DNA from: Bacteroidota bacterium
GTDB taxonomy: Bacteria > Bacteroidota > Ignavibacteria > Tepidaquicellales > Tepidaquicellaceae
NCBI GenBank assembly: GCA_018266835.1
Contig: JAFDZP010000005.1
Span: forward strand, 248,001 to 312,000
Reading direction: 5' to 3'
DNA length: 64,000 bases
The notes beneath the pieces were generated by a model. The model was given only the letters and a program-made list of their open reading frames with translations. It had not been told where the DNA came from and did not search any database. Positions 19,052-57,019 of the stretch are shown in pieces; position 1 is the stretch's first letter, and each line of letters begins with the position of its first letter. A program made the translations under genes and the position numbers.

Positions 19052-19082
19052 TGACTGGATTCCCGCCTTCGCGGGAATGACA
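19052..19082 (-). repeat. Family B palindromic repeat, single copy
   Basis: TGACTGGATTCCCGC then loop CTTC then GCGGGAATGACA. The same element recurs at 51571-51639 and 54484-55741. A second hairpin, CGGGG / CCCCG, follows at about 19101-19117. Confidence 0.8.
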
Positions 19083-38896: not shown

Positions 38897-38965
38897 CGAT
38901 AACTTCTTTTATGTAGAGTAAAGCTAGAATAACTCCTAAATAAGGAATGTAAATCACGAGAATAG

Positions 38966-39001
38966 AACCCCATCCTTTATAAGGAGGGGGCAGGGGGAGG
39001 T
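38966..39001 (-). repeat. Family A palindromic repeat, copy R9 (reverse)
   Basis: Hairpin CCCCATCCTT / AAGGAGGGGG, then tail CAGGGGGAGGT. Left boundary of the DUF559 bracket; the last codons and stop of the DUF559 gene lie inside it. Confidence 0.82.
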
Positions 39002-39366
39002 AAATTGCGACTAATTTCTATTTCATTCTTAATCTTATTAAGAACATTATCAATTGATTTATAGATTTCTTCATTTGAAAATCTAATTACCTTTATTTTT
39101 CTTTGCTTCAAATAATTTGTCCGAATTTTATCATACTCAATTGCATCTTTATCATCATGCACTTCACCATCCAATTCAATTCCTAGTCGGAGTTCTATTG
39201 AATAAAAATCTAAAATATATCTATCAACACTGTATTGCCTTCTGAATTTTATCCCATGAAATTTCTTATTCTTTATTTCATCCCAAAGTAACTGCTCTGC
39301 TTTAGTAGAATTGTTCCGAAGAAATTTTCTCGCTTCCTTTTTTTCGGGTTTGTTGTAAAGCTTCAT
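38977..39366 (-). CDS. DUF559 endonuclease-like protein (copy 1)
   Basis: 129 residues. DUF559 belongs to the Vsr/PD-(D/E)xK-like nucleases. Signatures seen: KEARKFLRNNSTKAEQLLWDE at the N-terminus, KFRRQYSVDRYILDFYS with the catalytic Asp, LGIELDGEVHDDKDAIEYDK with the ExD pair, and KVIRFSNEEIYKSIDNVL. No other domain. The final residues LPPPAPSL are encoded by repeat R9. Repeat R10 lies 26 bp upstream of the start in the opposite orientation, so the gene sits in an inverted-repeat bracket. Cellular role of the family is not established. Confidence 0.88.
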   Translation of the reverse strand: MKLYNKPEKKEARKFLRNNSTKAEQLLWDEIKNKKFHGIKFRRQYSVDRYILDFYSIELRLGIELDGEVHDDKDAIEYDKIRTNYLKQRKIKVIRFSNEEIYKSIDNVLNKIKNEIEISRNLPPPAPSL

Positions 39367-39391
39367 CTCAGCCGATTGAATTCTTGCCTTT

Positions 39392-39430
39392 AACCTCCCC
39401 CTTAATCCCCTCCTTAGTAAGGAGGGGGAA
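39392..39430 (+). repeat. Family A palindromic repeat, copy R10 (forward)
   Basis: Tail AACCTCCCCCTTAAT and hairpin CCCCTCCTTA / TAAGGAGGGG. Right boundary of the DUF559 copy 1 bracket. Confidence 0.85.
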
Positions 39431-43193: not shown

Positions 43194-43234
43194 TTCCCCC
43201 TCCTTACGAAGGAGGGGGACTGAGGGGGCGGTTA
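43194..43234 (-). repeat. Family A palindromic repeat, copy R13 (reverse)
   Basis: Hairpin CCCCCTCCTTA / GAAGGAGGGGG with tail ACTGAGGGGGCGGTTA, almost identical to R11. Left boundary of the second DUF559 bracket, 10 bp before its start codon. Confidence 0.87.
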
Positions 43235-43244
43235 AATAAGAAAA

Positions 43245-43613
43245 ATGGAAATATTTAATAAACCAGAGTCAAAGGAAAAAAGAAAACATCTTAGAAAAAA
43301 TTCTACCAAAGCAGAATCAATTCTTTGGGAAGAATTACGTGGTAAAAAACTTTTAGGCGCAAAATTCAAAAGACAATTTAGTGTTGATAAATACGTTATA
43401 GATTTTTATTGCCCTAAATTAAATCTTGCAATTGAGCTTGACGGAGAAATCCACTTAGAAAAAGTTGCTATAAAATATGATAAAGTAAGAACACTATTTT
43501 TAAATAACCTTGGAATAGAAGTAATCCGATTTAATAATGAAGAAATATTTGAAAGTCTGCCATTAGTTTTAGAAAGAATAAAGGATGAAATTTTAAAATT
43601 ACGTAGTAATTGA
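43245..43613 (+). CDS. DUF559 endonuclease-like protein (copy 2)
   Basis: 122 residues, the same family as copy 1 at 38977 but clearly diverged: KPESKEKRKHLRKNSTKAESILWEE, KFKRQFSVDKYVIDFYC, LAIELDGEIHLEKVAIKYDK and EVIRFNNEEIFESLPLVLERI. The predicted catalytic residues (D in VIDFY, E and D in ELDGE) are kept. R13 lies just before the start and R14 begins 3 bp after the stop, in inverted orientation, so the gene fills the bracket. Both DUF559 copies start with NKPE-(S/K)KE, so they are recent relatives. Confidence 0.88.
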   Translation: MEIFNKPESKEKRKHLRKNSTKAESILWEELRGKKLLGAKFKRQFSVDKYVIDFYCPKLNLAIELDGEIHLEKVAIKYDKVRTLFLNNLGIEVIRFNNEEIFESLPLVLERIKDEILKLRSN

Positions 43614-43615
43614 TA

Positions 43616-43680
43616 TCGCCCCTCCCGCATCAAGTGCTGGACATACTTTAATCCCCCTCCTTCGTAAGGAGGGGGGAAAT
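43616..43680 (+). repeat. Family A palindromic repeat, copy R14 (forward, with insertion)
   Basis: Tail TCGCCCCTCCCGC, 20-base insert, then CTTTAAT and hairpin CCCCCTCCTTC / AAGGAGGGGG. Right boundary of the DUF559 copy 2 bracket. Confidence 0.78.
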
Positions 43681-51570: not shown

Positions 51571-51639
51571 GTCATTCCTGCGAAGGCAGGAATCCAATCA
51601 TAAAGTTTAACTGGATCCCGGGTCAAGCCCGGGATGACA
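51571..51639. repeat. Family B palindromic pair, empty
   Basis: Left GTCATTCCTGCGAAGGCAGG followed by AATCCAATCA (51571-51600), ten-base centre, then right CTGGATCCCGGGTC and GACCCGGGATGACA-like arm AAGCCCGGGATGACA (51611-51639). The AATCCAATCA and TGGATCC tails face inward. The right copy runs into the frame of the Fur gene. Confidence 0.82.
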
Positions 51640-52189: not shown

Positions 52190-52408
52190 TTGAAAAGAGC
52201 TGACGATTTAAAAATCGGCGAGCGCGCCGTAATAAAAGACGTAGATAATACTCACCCGTCTGCGCACAGAATACTTGAAATCGGTTTCACGCCCGGGCAG
52301 GAAATCGAGCTTCTCAATTGCTCGGCATTCAAAGACCCTCTTGCATTTGCAATAAGAGGAACTATAATTGCAATCAGAAAAAAAGAGGCGCATTGTATTC
52401 ACATTTAA
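52190..52408 (+). CDS. feoA: Ferrous iron transport protein A
   Basis: 72 residues, TTG start, single FeoA/SH3-like domain: LKIGERAVIKDVDNTHPSAHRILEIGFTPGQEIELL and the closing IRGTIIAIRKKEA with the conserved Arg. A small cytoplasmic partner of FeoB. It overlaps the feoB start by 16 bases in a different frame, so the two are translationally coupled. Confidence 0.9.
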   Translation: MKRADDLKIGERAVIKDVDNTHPSAHRILEIGFTPGQEIELLNCSAFKDPLAFAIRGTIIAIRKKEAHCIHI

Positions 52409-54432
52409 ACGAAAAGAAGACTCCGCTTGTAACATTAGTTGGTCCGCCAAACTCGGGCAAGACTACGCTGTATAATTACCTCAGCGGAAAAAAATCCAAG
52501 ACGGTAAATTATCCCGGCTCGACCGTTAATTATTCTGTTTCTAAAATTCTCAGCAAGCACGAAGTTAACGCCGATATACTTGACTCTCCCGGAATCATTA
52601 GCTTAATCCCCACTTCCCCCGATGAAAAAGTTTCTGTCGATACGCTATACAAACATCCCAAGTACGGACATCCCGATATAGTAATTGTAACTGTTGATGC
52701 ATCGCAGCTCTCACGGCATTTGTATTTAGTGAAGCAGCTGATGGAATCGAATTTCAATCTGATTGTTGTTGTAACAATGATTGATATTCTGAAGCGTAAC
52801 GGAAAAGATATTGATATTATAAAACTCAGCGCAATACTTGGCTGCTGTGTTGTGAAATTTGACGGTAGAAACGCAGACGGTATAAAGCATTTGCTTGAAA
52901 AGACACGCGATAAAATCGTTGCTATACAAAAAGAAGAAATAATTTTACCGATTGCAAAATTTCATATTGATAAAGATAAACTGCTGCTTTCATACAAACA
53001 GATTGAAGAGATTGAAGATGAAGTAATAACCGAAAACGGTTTTAGAAAAAACGGTGCACTGGATTTAAACGCTATCAACGAAGAGCTTGTTATATTAAAT
53101 CAAAGAAGACCATTCGTAAGGCCTGATTCAAAGACTCTTAAGCTCGATAAAATTTTTCTTCATAAATACTGGGGACTTTCAATTTTCTTCCTGATTATGG
53201 CATTTACGTTCACTGCTATTTTCTGGATTGCACAGCCCATGATGGACTGGATAAGCGGCGGATTTGAATGGCTCTCAAATTATTCCGGTGATTTACTCGG
53301 TGATAATTTATTGAGTGATTTAGTTTCCGGCGGACTTATACCCGGGCTCGGTTCAGTTCTCGTCTTCCTACCGCAGATTTTAATTTTATTTTTTATACTT
53401 GAATTACTGGAAGACTCCGGCTACTTAGCGCGGGGCGCGATGCTTGTTGATAAGCCTCTCTCAAAAATTGGATTGAACGGACGTTCATTCGTTCCGATGC
53501 TTTCTGGTTTTGCATGCGCTATTCCCGCAACAATGGCTGCACGGACTATTGCAAATAAGAAAGAAAGATTTCTTACGATTTTTATTTTACCGTTAATGTC
53601 ATGCTCGGCGCGTATTCCGGTTTATGCTTTGCTCGTTGCTTTTTTAACTCCTAAAGATAAGCCATATCTCGGCGGAATATTTTTTACTCTGATTTATATT
53701 TTCAGCATAGTATGTTCTCTGGTTGTTGCTGCTATTATGAATAAATTCCGCGATAAAATTGTAAAAGAAAAAGAGGACTCGTCTTTTATACTTGAGCTCC
53801 CCGCTTACCGCAGACCAAAGCTCTGGTACAACTTAAAGCACTCATATAAGAATGCAAAGCAGTATGTAAAAAAAGCGGGACCTGTGATTTTAATTCTGTC
53901 TCTTGTGCTATGGGTGCTGACAACTTTTCCAAATTACAATCCGTCCATTCCGGATGCGGATAAGTTAAGCGCTGAGGAAGTTTCTTCTGTTAAAAACTCC
54001 GAACGTCTCGCAGGCTCATATGCTGCCATGATGGGAAGATTTATTGAACCCGTTATGAAGCCGATGGGAATGGACTGGCGTATCGGCGTTTCTCTTGTTG
54101 CTACTTTCGCAGCGCGTGAAGTGTTCGTCAGCTCCTTAGCACTTATTTTCAAAGTGACCGATGACGATGAGTCAAATCATAATAGCCTTCTCACTGCAAT
54201 GCAGGATGCAAAGTTTGAAGATACGGGTAAGAAGTTATTTACGCCGTCAATGGTTATAGGGCTCGTAATCTTTTTCGTCTTTGCTATGCAATGTTTATCC
54301 ACGACAGCAATTGCACGCAAGGAAACCGGCGGCTGGAAAATACCTATACTGCAAATTGTAGTTTTTACTTCGCTTGCCTATACTCTGACTGTAATTGTTG
54401 TGAATGGGTTGAAAGCGATGGGAGTGAGTTAG
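52393..54432 (+). CDS. feoB: Ferrous iron transport protein B
   Basis: 679 residues from a TTG at 52393, which starts LYSHLNEKKTP; the frame is open to 52318 but that part lies within feoA and lacks FeoB similarity. The N-terminal GTPase domain has G1 GPPNSGKTT, G3 DSPGI and a G4 written TMID where NMID is usual. Then come about eight transmembrane helices with the two Gate regions: LVFLPQILILFFILELLEDSGYLARGAML, FVPMLSGFACAIPATMAAR and LPLMSCSARIPVYALL. It takes up Fe2+ at the inner membrane. feoC is absent, as in most of the phylum. Confidence 0.93.
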   Translation: MYSHLNEKKTPLVTLVGPPNSGKTTLYNYLSGKKSKTVNYPGSTVNYSVSKILSKHEVNADILDSPGIISLIPTSPDEKVSVDTLYKHPKYGHPDIVIVTVDASQLSRHLYLVKQLMESNFNLIVVVTMIDILKRNGKDIDIIKLSAILGCCVVKFDGRNADGIKHLLEKTRDKIVAIQKEEIILPIAKFHIDKDKLLLSYKQIEEIEDEVITENGFRKNGALDLNAINEELVILNQRRPFVRPDSKTLKLDKIFLHKYWGLSIFFLIMAFTFTAIFWIAQPMMDWISGGFEWLSNYSGDLLGDNLLSDLVSGGLIPGLGSVLVFLPQILILFFILELLEDSGYLARGAMLVDKPLSKIGLNGRSFVPMLSGFACAIPATMAARTIANKKERFLTIFILPLMSCSARIPVYALLVAFLTPKDKPYLGGIFFTLIYIFSIVCSLVVAAIMNKFRDKIVKEKEDSSFILELPAYRRPKLWYNLKHSYKNAKQYVKKAGPVILILSLVLWVLTTFPNYNPSIPDADKLSAEEVSSVKNSERLAGSYAAMMGRFIEPVMKPMGMDWRIGVSLVATFAAREVFVSSLALIFKVTDDDESNHNSLLTAMQDAKFEDTGKKLFTPSMVIGLVIFFVFAMQCLSTTAIARKETGGWKIPILQIVVFTSLAYTLTVIVVNGLKAMGVS

Positions 54433-54483
54433 TTCTCGGTTGTTAGCTGTCAATTGCTAGAAAAATTTCACATATACACTCTA

Positions 54484-54514
54484 TGTCATTCCCGCGAAAG
54501 CGGGAATCCAATCA
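54484..54514 (+). repeat. Family B palindromic repeat (left boundary of the Mrr bracket)
   Basis: TGTCATTCCCGC, loop GAAA, GCGGGAATCCAATCA. Confidence 0.85.
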
Positions 54515-54587
54515 AATGACTCCCAAATTAACTCTTGATTAACTTAAATACTAAATATAATTTATAAGTAATTAAAGTAAGTTATAT

Positions 54588-55688
54588 TTGGGCAGAGGAT
54601 ATTATCGTAACGATTCAACTTCTTCACTAATTGCAATTCTCATATATTCTTATCCAATAGGTAAAGGATATCAATACGTATTAACAAATTGGCTTCACAT
54701 AAAAATTAACCCTTGGTATCTTTTTTGGATATTAATATATCCATTAACTTTAGTAATTTTAATTTTTTTATTTTGGGGGATCGGATGGCTTGCAAACTAT
54801 ATAAAGGAAAAGCGTTTCAATTATAAACAAGCAAGACAAGTATGCAAACACAATATTATAGGAGGTGAGACGTTAGCAAAATGTGAAAAATGTAAATGGG
54901 ATAAAATTTTACTTGAAAGAAAAAAAAATAATGAGAGGATAGCAATTGAAAAGAAAAAAGAATTGAACCAAAAGGCAGATGACTTAAGGTTAAATGAATA
55001 TAAAAGACTTTTGAAACTAAAATTGACAAAACAAGAATATCTATTATCACTCCAACCAAATGAATTTGAAGACATAGTTTCAAAAATGTTTGAAAATCTT
55101 GGATACAAAGTAAATAAAACTCCTTATACAAATGATAGAGGAAAAGATGCCGTATTCTTTAAAAATAATAGAAAATTTGTAGCAGAATATAAAAAGTATA
55201 AAAAAGAAAATACTATTGGTAGAAGGGCACTGCAAATCTTTTTTGCAGCTATGCAAGAAGAAAAAGCAGAAAAAGGGTTTTTTGTAACAACTTCTGATTT
55301 CAAAAAAACTGCAATAGAGTACGCTTCGACTGTAAATATTGATTGCATAAATATTGATCGCTTACTTAAATTAATGGGCGCCGCATTTCCCGAAAAAGAA
55401 AACTATAACTATAATGCGATGTGCAGAGAATGTGGGAACATTGTTTTATTTGATCTTAAAAACTCTGAAAGTTCTAAAGTATGTGAATTTGGACATACTG
55501 TAAATCTTGATATTAACATAGATGATATATCGATTAATATACTTACACAGAAAAAGATTTGTTATAGTTGCGGAAAAGAAATGAAACTAACTAATGGGTT
55601 TTATGGTAAATATTGGCGTTGTTCTGGGTATCCTAATTGCAAACGGTCATATAGTGCAAAAAATTTTAAGTTTAAGAGATATAGATAA
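54588..55688 (+). CDS. Membrane-anchored Mrr-type restriction endonuclease-like protein with zinc fingers
   Basis: 366 residues, TTG start. Two hydrophobic segments at about 12-30 and 44-70, then a Cys/His cluster CKHNIIGGETLAKCEKC, a charged coiled-coil stretch (105-150), and the Mrr catalytic domain at about 155-265: LQPNEFEDIVSKMFENLGY, DRGKDAVFF with the catalytic Asp, and FVAEYKKYKK, the E-x-K of the PD-(D/E)xK nuclease. The C-terminus has a topoisomerase-type C4 zinc finger, CYSCGKEM ... YWRCSGYPNCKRSY. Such proteins recognise and cut modified or foreign DNA, here probably at the membrane. AT-rich, alone, and flanked by inverted family B repeats: signs of transfer. Confidence 0.82.
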   Translation: MGRGYYRNDSTSSLIAILIYSYPIGKGYQYVLTNWLHIKINPWYLFWILIYPLTLVILIFLFWGIGWLANYIKEKRFNYKQARQVCKHNIIGGETLAKCEKCKWDKILLERKKNNERIAIEKKKELNQKADDLRLNEYKRLLKLKLTKQEYLLSLQPNEFEDIVSKMFENLGYKVNKTPYTNDRGKDAVFFKNNRKFVAEYKKYKKENTIGRRALQIFFAAMQEEKAEKGFFVTTSDFKKTAIEYASTVNIDCINIDRLLKLMGAAFPEKENYNYNAMCRECGNIVLFDLKNSESSKVCEFGHTVNLDINIDDISINILTQKKICYSCGKEMKLTNGFYGKYWRCSGYPNCKRSYSAKNFKFKRYR

Positions 55689-55689
55689 A

Positions 55690-55741
55690 TGATTGGATTC
55701 TCGCCGGAGTTTATCCTGCATTTGGTGTGGAACGGGAATGC
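55690..55741 (-). repeat. Family B palindromic repeat (right boundary of the Mrr bracket)
   Basis: TGATTGGATTCTCG and CGGGAATGCA arms with a 27-base loop; the TGATTGGATTC tail is the exact inverse of GAATCCAATCA at 54504-54514 and starts two bases after the stop. Confidence 0.78.
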
Positions 55742-55754
55742 ATTATGAATTGAT

Positions 55755-55825
55755 ACCGCCCCCTTAATCCCCCTCCTTGTAACGCTATCAATTATCAAGT
55801 CCCGCTTTAGCGGGAGAGGGGGGAA
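55755..55825 (+). repeat. Family A palindromic repeat, copy R17 (forward, with insertion)
   Basis: Tail ACCGCCCCCTTAAT, CCCCCTCCTTG, an insert holding TCCCGCTTTAGCGGGA, and then the GAGGGGGGAA arm. A palindrome nested in the loop of the repeat. Confidence 0.78.
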
Positions 55826-55833
55826 CTTGTGAA

Positions 55834-55871
55834 TAAAAAAAAACTCCTTCCGGAAAAATCCGAAAGGAGTT
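55834..55871 (-). terminator. Terminator of ychF
   Basis: Arms AACTCCTTCCGGA (55842-55854) and TCCGAAAGGAGTT (55859-55871); T run on the minus strand. Confidence 0.88.
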
Positions 55872-55912
55872 AAAGTTTTCTGACAACGAACAACTAGCAA
55901 CGGACAACTAAA

Positions 55913-57019
55913 TCAGACATTGAACCTAAAATTCGCAATATCGCCATCCTCAAACACATAATCTTTTCCTTCTACGTGCAGTAATCCTTTTTCTTTAACA
56001 GCTGCTTCAGTTTTATATTCAAGAATGTCTTTGCATTTTATAACCTCTGCGCGGATGAATCCTTTTTCGAAATCGGTGTGAATTACTCCCGCTGCTGCCG
56101 GAGCTTTTGTGCCTTTATGGATTGTCCATAAGTGCAGTTCCTTCTCCCCTGCCGTGAAGTATGTGATTAAATTTAATAATGAATATGCTTCTCTTATAAG
56201 TCTGTCAAGACCTGATGCTTCAAGTCCCAACTCCTTTAAAAATTCCGCTTTCTCTTCTTTGGTTTCCAATTGGGAAATTTCAGATTCAATCTGTACTGAC
56301 AACGTCATAAAGTTAGCGCCTTCTTTTGCAGCGATTTCTTTTACTACATCTGAATATTTATTTCCCTTCGAGCTTGAATCATCTACGTTTGCAACATATA
56401 AAAACGGCTTATCGGTTAGAAGATGCAAGTCACGGATTGTGATTTTATCGTCTTCGTTATCTAATTCATTCGTAAAATATTTTGCAAGTCTTCCGCCGGA
56501 TAAATGTTCTTTCAATCTTGTAAGTACATCTACTGCAGCTTTTATTTTTTTATCGCCTGACTTCAAACCTTTTGATGTTCTCTCTATTCCCTTCTCAGTT
56601 GTATCAAGATCTTTTAGTATAAGTTCTGTTTCAATAACTTCAATATCATCGGCGGGATTTACTTTTCCCTCTACGTGAATAACGTTATCATCTTCAAAGC
56701 ATCTGACAATATGAATAATTGCATCAACTTCTCTTATGTGAGATAAGAACTGATTGCCAAGCCCTTCGCCCTTTGAAGCGCCCTTTACAAGTCCCGCTAT
56801 ATCAACGAACTCAATCGTTGACGGAATTATTTTTTTAGGATTATATAATGCAACAAGCTTATCGATTCTTTCATCGGGTACGATAACTGTTCCGACGTTA
56901 GGATCGATTGTACAAAAAGGATAATTTGCCGCCTCTGCATTTTGTGAAGAGGTTAAAGCATTAAACAATGTTGACTTTCCTACATTCGGAAGTCCTACTA
57001 TACCGCATCTTAAAGACAT
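55913..57019 (-). CDS. ychF: Redox-regulated ATPase YchF (Obg family)
   Basis: 368 residues, family-standard. N-terminal G domain with [15 protein letters not shown] (G1), [30 protein letters not shown] (G3), and NVDD in place of NKxD in G4, the basis for its ATP preference. The C-terminal TGS domain holds [41 protein letters not shown] and ends in [10 protein letters not shown]. It binds ribosomes and responds to oxidative stress. Own terminator downstream. Confidence 0.96.
   Translation of the reverse strand: [368 protein letters not shown]

Follow-up and report, generated by a model that had tools for sequence, protein, structure and literature searches.

Within a window of 64,000 nucleotides of DNA from a bacterium of the phylum Bacteroidota, a gene for an Mrr-type nuclease lies between two palindromes. 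This arrangement raises the question whether gene and repeats form a mobile cassette or came together independently. The original prediction placed the gene between inward-facing palindromes with their hairpins outside; re-analysis confirmed the coordinates of this arrangement and an inverted tail of 11 nt. The locus comprises the following features:

52402–54432, + strand: feoB, conserved left neighbour; start codon approximate.
54425–54471, + strand: outer inverted-repeat arm just past the feoB stop codon; 47 nt, imperfect.
54484–54514, + strand: left palindrome, an intact CGTC-type REP of 31 nt, TGTCATTCCCGCGAAAGCGGGAATCCAATCA.
54588–55688, + strand: Mrr-type nuclease gene, TTG start codon, 366 amino acids.
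55690–55740, - strand: right palindrome, a decayed CGTC-type REP of the long (GGAGTTTATCC) subtype; 51 nt, TGATTGGATTC...CGGGAATG.
55749–55822, + strand: family A palindrome split by a second short palindrome; right side only.
55869–55915, - strand: outer inverted-repeat arm just before the ychF stop codon.
55913–57019, - strand: ychF, conserved right neighbour, convergent with feoB.

The Mrr-type product contains a strong transmembrane segment (approximately residues 44–63), an Mrr_cat domain (PF04471, residues 153–263; E-value 1.1e-25, 90.4 bits against a cut-off of 21) and a C-terminal Topo-type zinc ribbon (residues 324–358), the last as a weak match. The PD-(D/E)xK residues of Mrr_cat (D187, E200-x-K202) were all in place. 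In this domain, with its D and E-x-K residues, the protein resembles Mrr-type (type IV-like) restriction endonucleases, a family defined by cleavage of methylated foreign DNA, whereas its N-terminal membrane anchor and zinc ribbon differ from the description of known enzymes of this type. The nuclease domain was matched by the PADLOC models mREase_IV (type IV methyl-directed) and PDC-S02 (a candidate system). No close relative of the protein was found in the public genome collection. Searches of 148 relatives yielded weak, domain-level matches at most, those of phages and plasmids yielded domain-level matches only, and PDB sequences gave no match. As had been predicted, the gene is AT-rich relative to its neighbours (GC content 28.6%, versus 40.2% for feoB and 37.2% for ychF). 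It is probably an acquired accessory nuclease, for which family membership makes a role in defence, probably against phages, likely.

The left palindrome consists of a TGTC head, a ATTCCCGC/GCGGGAAT stem, a GAAA loop and a CCAATCA tail directed toward the gene, and its predicted fold is stable (-9 kcal/mol, z -4.8). In the right palindrome, the TGATTGG tail is also directed toward the gene, the head is gone and the predicted fold is at shuffle level (z 0.12). The inverted tail common to both is exactly 11 nt long (GAATCCAATCA / TGATTGGATTC), with tails inward and hairpins outside. Pattern searches of the 4.0 Mb genome yielded 12 copies with a tight and 16 with a loose hairpin definition, against none for reversed-pattern controls; GGGAATCCAATCA is carried by nine copies, and the well-formed ones among the 12–16 copies sit in gaps between open reading frames. 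By pattern, the right element occurs only once in the genome. It aligned, however, with GTATTCCCGCTGGAGTTTATCCCGTATTTAGTACGGGGCGGGAATGACA, a longer subtype that adjoins a GIY-YIG gene in another phylum (locus L177), with a score of 44 that none of 2000 shuffles reached. This match identified the right element as a genuine but decayed REP of another subtype. Consequently, of the two copies of one repeat family originally proposed to flank the gene, the left stands as a family copy, but the right does not duplicate the left.

Stem pairs of these REPs covary across relatives (18 double-change cells, versus 5 in shuffles). Both flanking palindromes fit the published superfamily of CGTC-tagged REPs (Di Nocera 2013, PMC3733652), palindromes of 20–40 nt with a conserved stem, whose members lie mostly between convergent or same-direction ORFs, were reported without a dedicated transposase and include the Neisseria repeat dRS3 (ATTCCC-N8-GGGAAT; PMC3898611). 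The elements share with this superfamily the stem, loop size, GTC head, AATCC tail and preference for convergent or 3' intergenic positions, as well as its occurrence in Chlorobi/Bacteroidetes-type genomes. Unlike the CGTC head described in PMC3733652, the GTC head of the copies found here is preceded by T (TGTC); CGTC itself is present in alphaproteobacterial GIY-YIG units. Further REP copies occur within the window at 51571–51595 and 19057–19081, one between aminotransferase and fur genes. In a relative (G014), REP strand was strongly biased along long contig stretches (contig C1: 12 of 15 forward), possibly tracking replication direction.

Throughout the family, feoB and ychF adjoin each other in convergent orientation, and a distance of 6–14 nt separates the two stop codons in most relatives. 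In G014 the gap of 87 nt is occupied by a REP (TGTCATTCCTGCGAAGGCAGGAATCCATCA) and a second palindrome but no gene. The sister species G001, a congener whose YchF is 93% identical, carries a different gene plus debris in the slot, and sequence resembling the outer inverted-repeat arms. This gene (locus L085, 3226–3849) encodes a protein of 207 amino acids that begins like a lipoprotein and matches no Pfam family. An Rfam search of the slot gave sub-threshold matches only. Because the slot is empty in most relatives, contains only REPs in G014 and holds another gene in G001, it is variable and collects repeats, and the Mrr gene is an acquisition specific to this species. As described in PMC3898611, minimal mobile elements (Saunders and Snyder 2002) similarly consist of differing whole genes between two conserved genes, with no mobility gene, and are incorporated by homologous recombination only. 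The present slot differs from them in that it was compared between species rather than strains and also gathers REPs.

REP copies in this genome and its relatives were listed with their strand, and neighbouring copies 0.5–4 kb apart were classed by orientation. The resulting 40 pairs comprised 6 tail-to-tail, 7 head-to-head and 27 direct pairs; with 10 tail-to-tail pairs expected, enrichment of gene-length tail-to-tail pairs was rejected. Genes enclosed by inward-facing pairs were mostly ordinary (amidase, queG, relA, secreted proteins). For the suggested route by which defence nucleases might move, the sole hint lies in G001 (contig C40; loci L117 and L161), where tail-to-tail REPs 2.7 kb apart enclose a gene for a 786-residue NACHT-type protein, with a PIN-like gene adjacent; besides the Mrr bracket, this is the one tail-to-tail pair of gene length in the genus. 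Of the 19 Mrr homologues tested in relatives, none had head-out REPs on both sides, and general bracketing of Mrr genes by REPs was therefore rejected. In two relatives, weak inverted repeats of a different kind were present. Within the genome, the REP-Mrr-REP unit was found in a single copy. In simulations, a tail-to-tail bracket around a single gene arose by chance with P of approximately 0.02 in this genome (17 REPs) and in 0.5% of genomes like that of G001, which nonetheless has one. With these chance levels, the Mrr bracket is unusual, yet not compelling when taken alone. A REP-Mrr cassette is not recurrent.

In relatives, tail-to-tail REP pairs of approximately 314–330 nt (one in G001, two in G014) and one of 639 nt (G013) enclose a gene for a solo GIY-YIG endonuclease of about 110 residues. 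Further solo GIY-YIG genes, found in relatives by Pfam search, had palindromes on either side, some of them from another family with a GTC head (TGTCATCCTGAGCG..., CCCTGAGCGGAGTCGAAGGG). Next, with protein similarity as the sole criterion, 80 GIY-YIG loci were retrieved from the public genome collection, of which 78 had usable flanks. A flanking inverted pair with a score of at least 24 was present at 70 of the 78 loci, versus 24% of shuffled pairings, and one with a score of at least 40 at 40 of them, versus 5%. Where REPs on both sides were compared, 34 of 74 loci were head-out and 13 head-in, while the head-out arrangement was absent from the controls (0/29 ychF, 0/19 Mrr). The loci span Bacteroidota, Alphaproteobacteria, Patescibacteria, Clostridia, spirochaetes, planctomycetes and others. 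These results support the existence, across many phyla, of a regular unit in which GTCAT/CGTC REPs flank a solo GIY-YIG endonuclease gene. The Mrr locus matches this unit in architecture, but its interior gene encodes Mrr instead of GIY-YIG. In this genome, none of the three inspected genes among six GIY-YIG matches was bracketed by REPs, and searches of phage records with the GIY-YIG query gave no matches.

The ends of the GIY-YIG unit coincide with the REP heads. In G014, two units share 82% identity over a stretch that runs exactly from GTCATT to AATGAC, beyond which their sequences are unrelated, and several alignments between units of different species likewise end at the REP heads. Between gltA and lpxB, Sinorhizobium meliloti Ak57 carries a decayed unit (locus pair L289/L292), whereas Sinorhizobium K101, with the same flanks, has at this position a single two-headed palindrome, TCATCCTCGGGCTTGTTCCCGAGGATGAC, and no GIY-YIG unit. 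Such a filled and empty pair would result if a unit had inserted into a REP-like palindrome or been lost from one. An entire REP/GIY-YIG cluster of Shinella is missing from S. oryzae. With one clean empty-site pair and one coarse pair to go on, the mechanism is a proposal, in which the GIY-YIG nuclease would cut at or near REP palindromes and repair would then copy the unit in, in a homing-like manner; direct transposition would be an alternative. Either process may help both the REPs and the GIY-YIG gene to spread.

Neighbouring REP pairs less than 150 nt apart in relatives comprised 6 tail-to-tail, 0 head-to-head and 14 direct pairs, an orientation pattern expected if tail-to-tail dimers were deletion derivatives of REP-GIY-YIG-REP. 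Solo GIY-YIG genes of a second type (YTYIL..YIGHT/YTGST) were observed at or inside tRNA genes (L242, L246, L247, L249, L252, L253 and L256), including one locus in the genome under study (L242; C2:402200-403700). The opposite side of these genes usually has a partial copy of the 3' part of the tRNA, and in L253 the GIY-YIG gene interrupts tRNA-Leu.

A second nuclease family is associated with the family A palindromes. The window contains two DUF559 genes, both bracketed by these palindromes (38963–39430 and 43194–43677), the second, which was the comparison case of the original prediction, as follows:

43245–43613, + strand: DUF559 gene, with family A palindromes at 43194–43232 and 43633–43677 on either side.

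Of 19 solo DUF559 genes from relatives, 12 had a flanking inverted pair with a score of at least 28, versus 12% of shuffled pairings, and these pairs were mostly CCCCTCC...GGAGGGG palindromes. Together with the two genes in the window, this count supports the earlier statement that family A palindromes bracket DUF559. The broader idea that repeat families regularly bracket nucleases was supported, in modified form, for GIY-YIG with REPs of the type seen at the Mrr locus and for DUF559 with family A, but did not extend to Mrr.

How, then, did the Mrr gene come to lie between two REPs? With a confidence slightly above even, we consider independent insertion of REPs around an acquired gene the most likely explanation. 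In this species alone, the Mrr-type gene would have entered the variable slot that separates feoB from the convergent ychF. CGTC-type REPs, which build up in convergent intergenic regions and at the 3' ends of genes, would have been added independently at both of its ends, and their tail-to-tail orientation would be happenstance. The different subtypes and ages of the two flanking REPs, and the third, unrelated palindrome on one side only, are consistent with such a history. Against it stand the low chance levels given above, despite which both this genome and G001 have a bracket, each around a defence-like gene. In addition, the tight fit of the right REP, 1 nt past the mrr stop codon, resembles that of GIY-YIG units, and a matched repeat pair around a species-specific gene is what a cassette would also leave.

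A cassette with exchanged cargo is a possible but less probable origin, to which we give tentative weight. According to this explanation, Mrr would occupy a unit bounded by REPs in which GIY-YIG is the usual cargo, and this unit would be mobilised either in trans by a GIY-YIG enzyme or through recombination at the REPs. The head-out, tail-in architecture shared with GIY-YIG units, the NACHT-type gene within the genus's only other gene-length tail-to-tail pair and the low chance expectation all agree with a cassette. Such a unit is, however, difficult to reconcile with two REPs that differ in subtype and are unequally decayed, with the lack of REP brackets around any of the 19 Mrr homologues, with the single copy of the unit in the genome and with the absence of enrichment of gene-length tail-to-tail pairs in relatives.

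It is improbable that the REPs serve feoB and mrr as ordinary 3'-end elements, as terminators or for mRNA stabilisation, and are unrelated to gene movement. Their positions, 52 nt past the feoB stop codon for the left REP and immediately past that of mrr for the right, would suit such a role, as would the tendency of published REPs to cluster between convergent ORFs and at positions downstream of ORFs (PMC3733652) and the location of several other copies in the genome 7–16 nt from a gene end. The decay of the right hairpin and the differing orientations of the two REPs argue against it, and it leaves the absence of REPs at this site in most relatives unexplained. Transport of Mrr by an ordinary insertion sequence or a composite transposon whose terminal inverted repeats are the REPs would account for an acquired gene flanked by inverted repeats, but is largely refuted and very improbable: the genome has no Y1 (IS200/RAYT) transposase domain, no transposase gene lies between the repeats, these are scattered as solo copies, and only 11 nt of their ends match.

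In RAYT/REPtron systems with GTAG REPs and REPINs (PMC2817692, PMC3116915), a gene for a small DNA-cutting enzyme likewise lies between inverted REPs, and inverted REP dimers also exist. The units described here differ in that the enzyme is a GIY-YIG (or DUF559) nuclease instead of a Y1 HUH transposase, neither of which is present at the Mrr locus, and in that the REPs have GTC instead of GTAG heads. With no match to PF01797 in this genome, mobilisation by a Y1 transposase was rejected. Whereas CGTC REPs were reported without a dedicated transposase (PMC3733652), solo GIY-YIG genes are here their regular bracketed partner. No published link between GIY-YIG or DUF559 and REPs was found in the open-access literature, including the RepRanger paper. 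Solo GIY-YIG nucleases may be the missing mobilisers of GTCAT/CGTC REPs, and DUF559 nucleases those of CCCCTCC...GGAGGGG palindromes, so that REP-nuclease-REP units would form a minimal mobile class parallel to RAYT REPtrons and REP-Mrr-REP would represent an occasional cargo swap; we regard this proposal as evenly balanced.

For the Mrr locus itself the meaning is modest: a variable slot has here acquired a candidate defence gene. The GIY-YIG partnership, with unit ends at the REP heads, provides a concrete candidate enzyme for CGTC-type REPs in many phyla and may explain how such palindromes spread. If this is true, solo GIY-YIG and DUF559 genes, two large and poorly understood groups, would be readable as selfish elements rather than as defence or repair genes.
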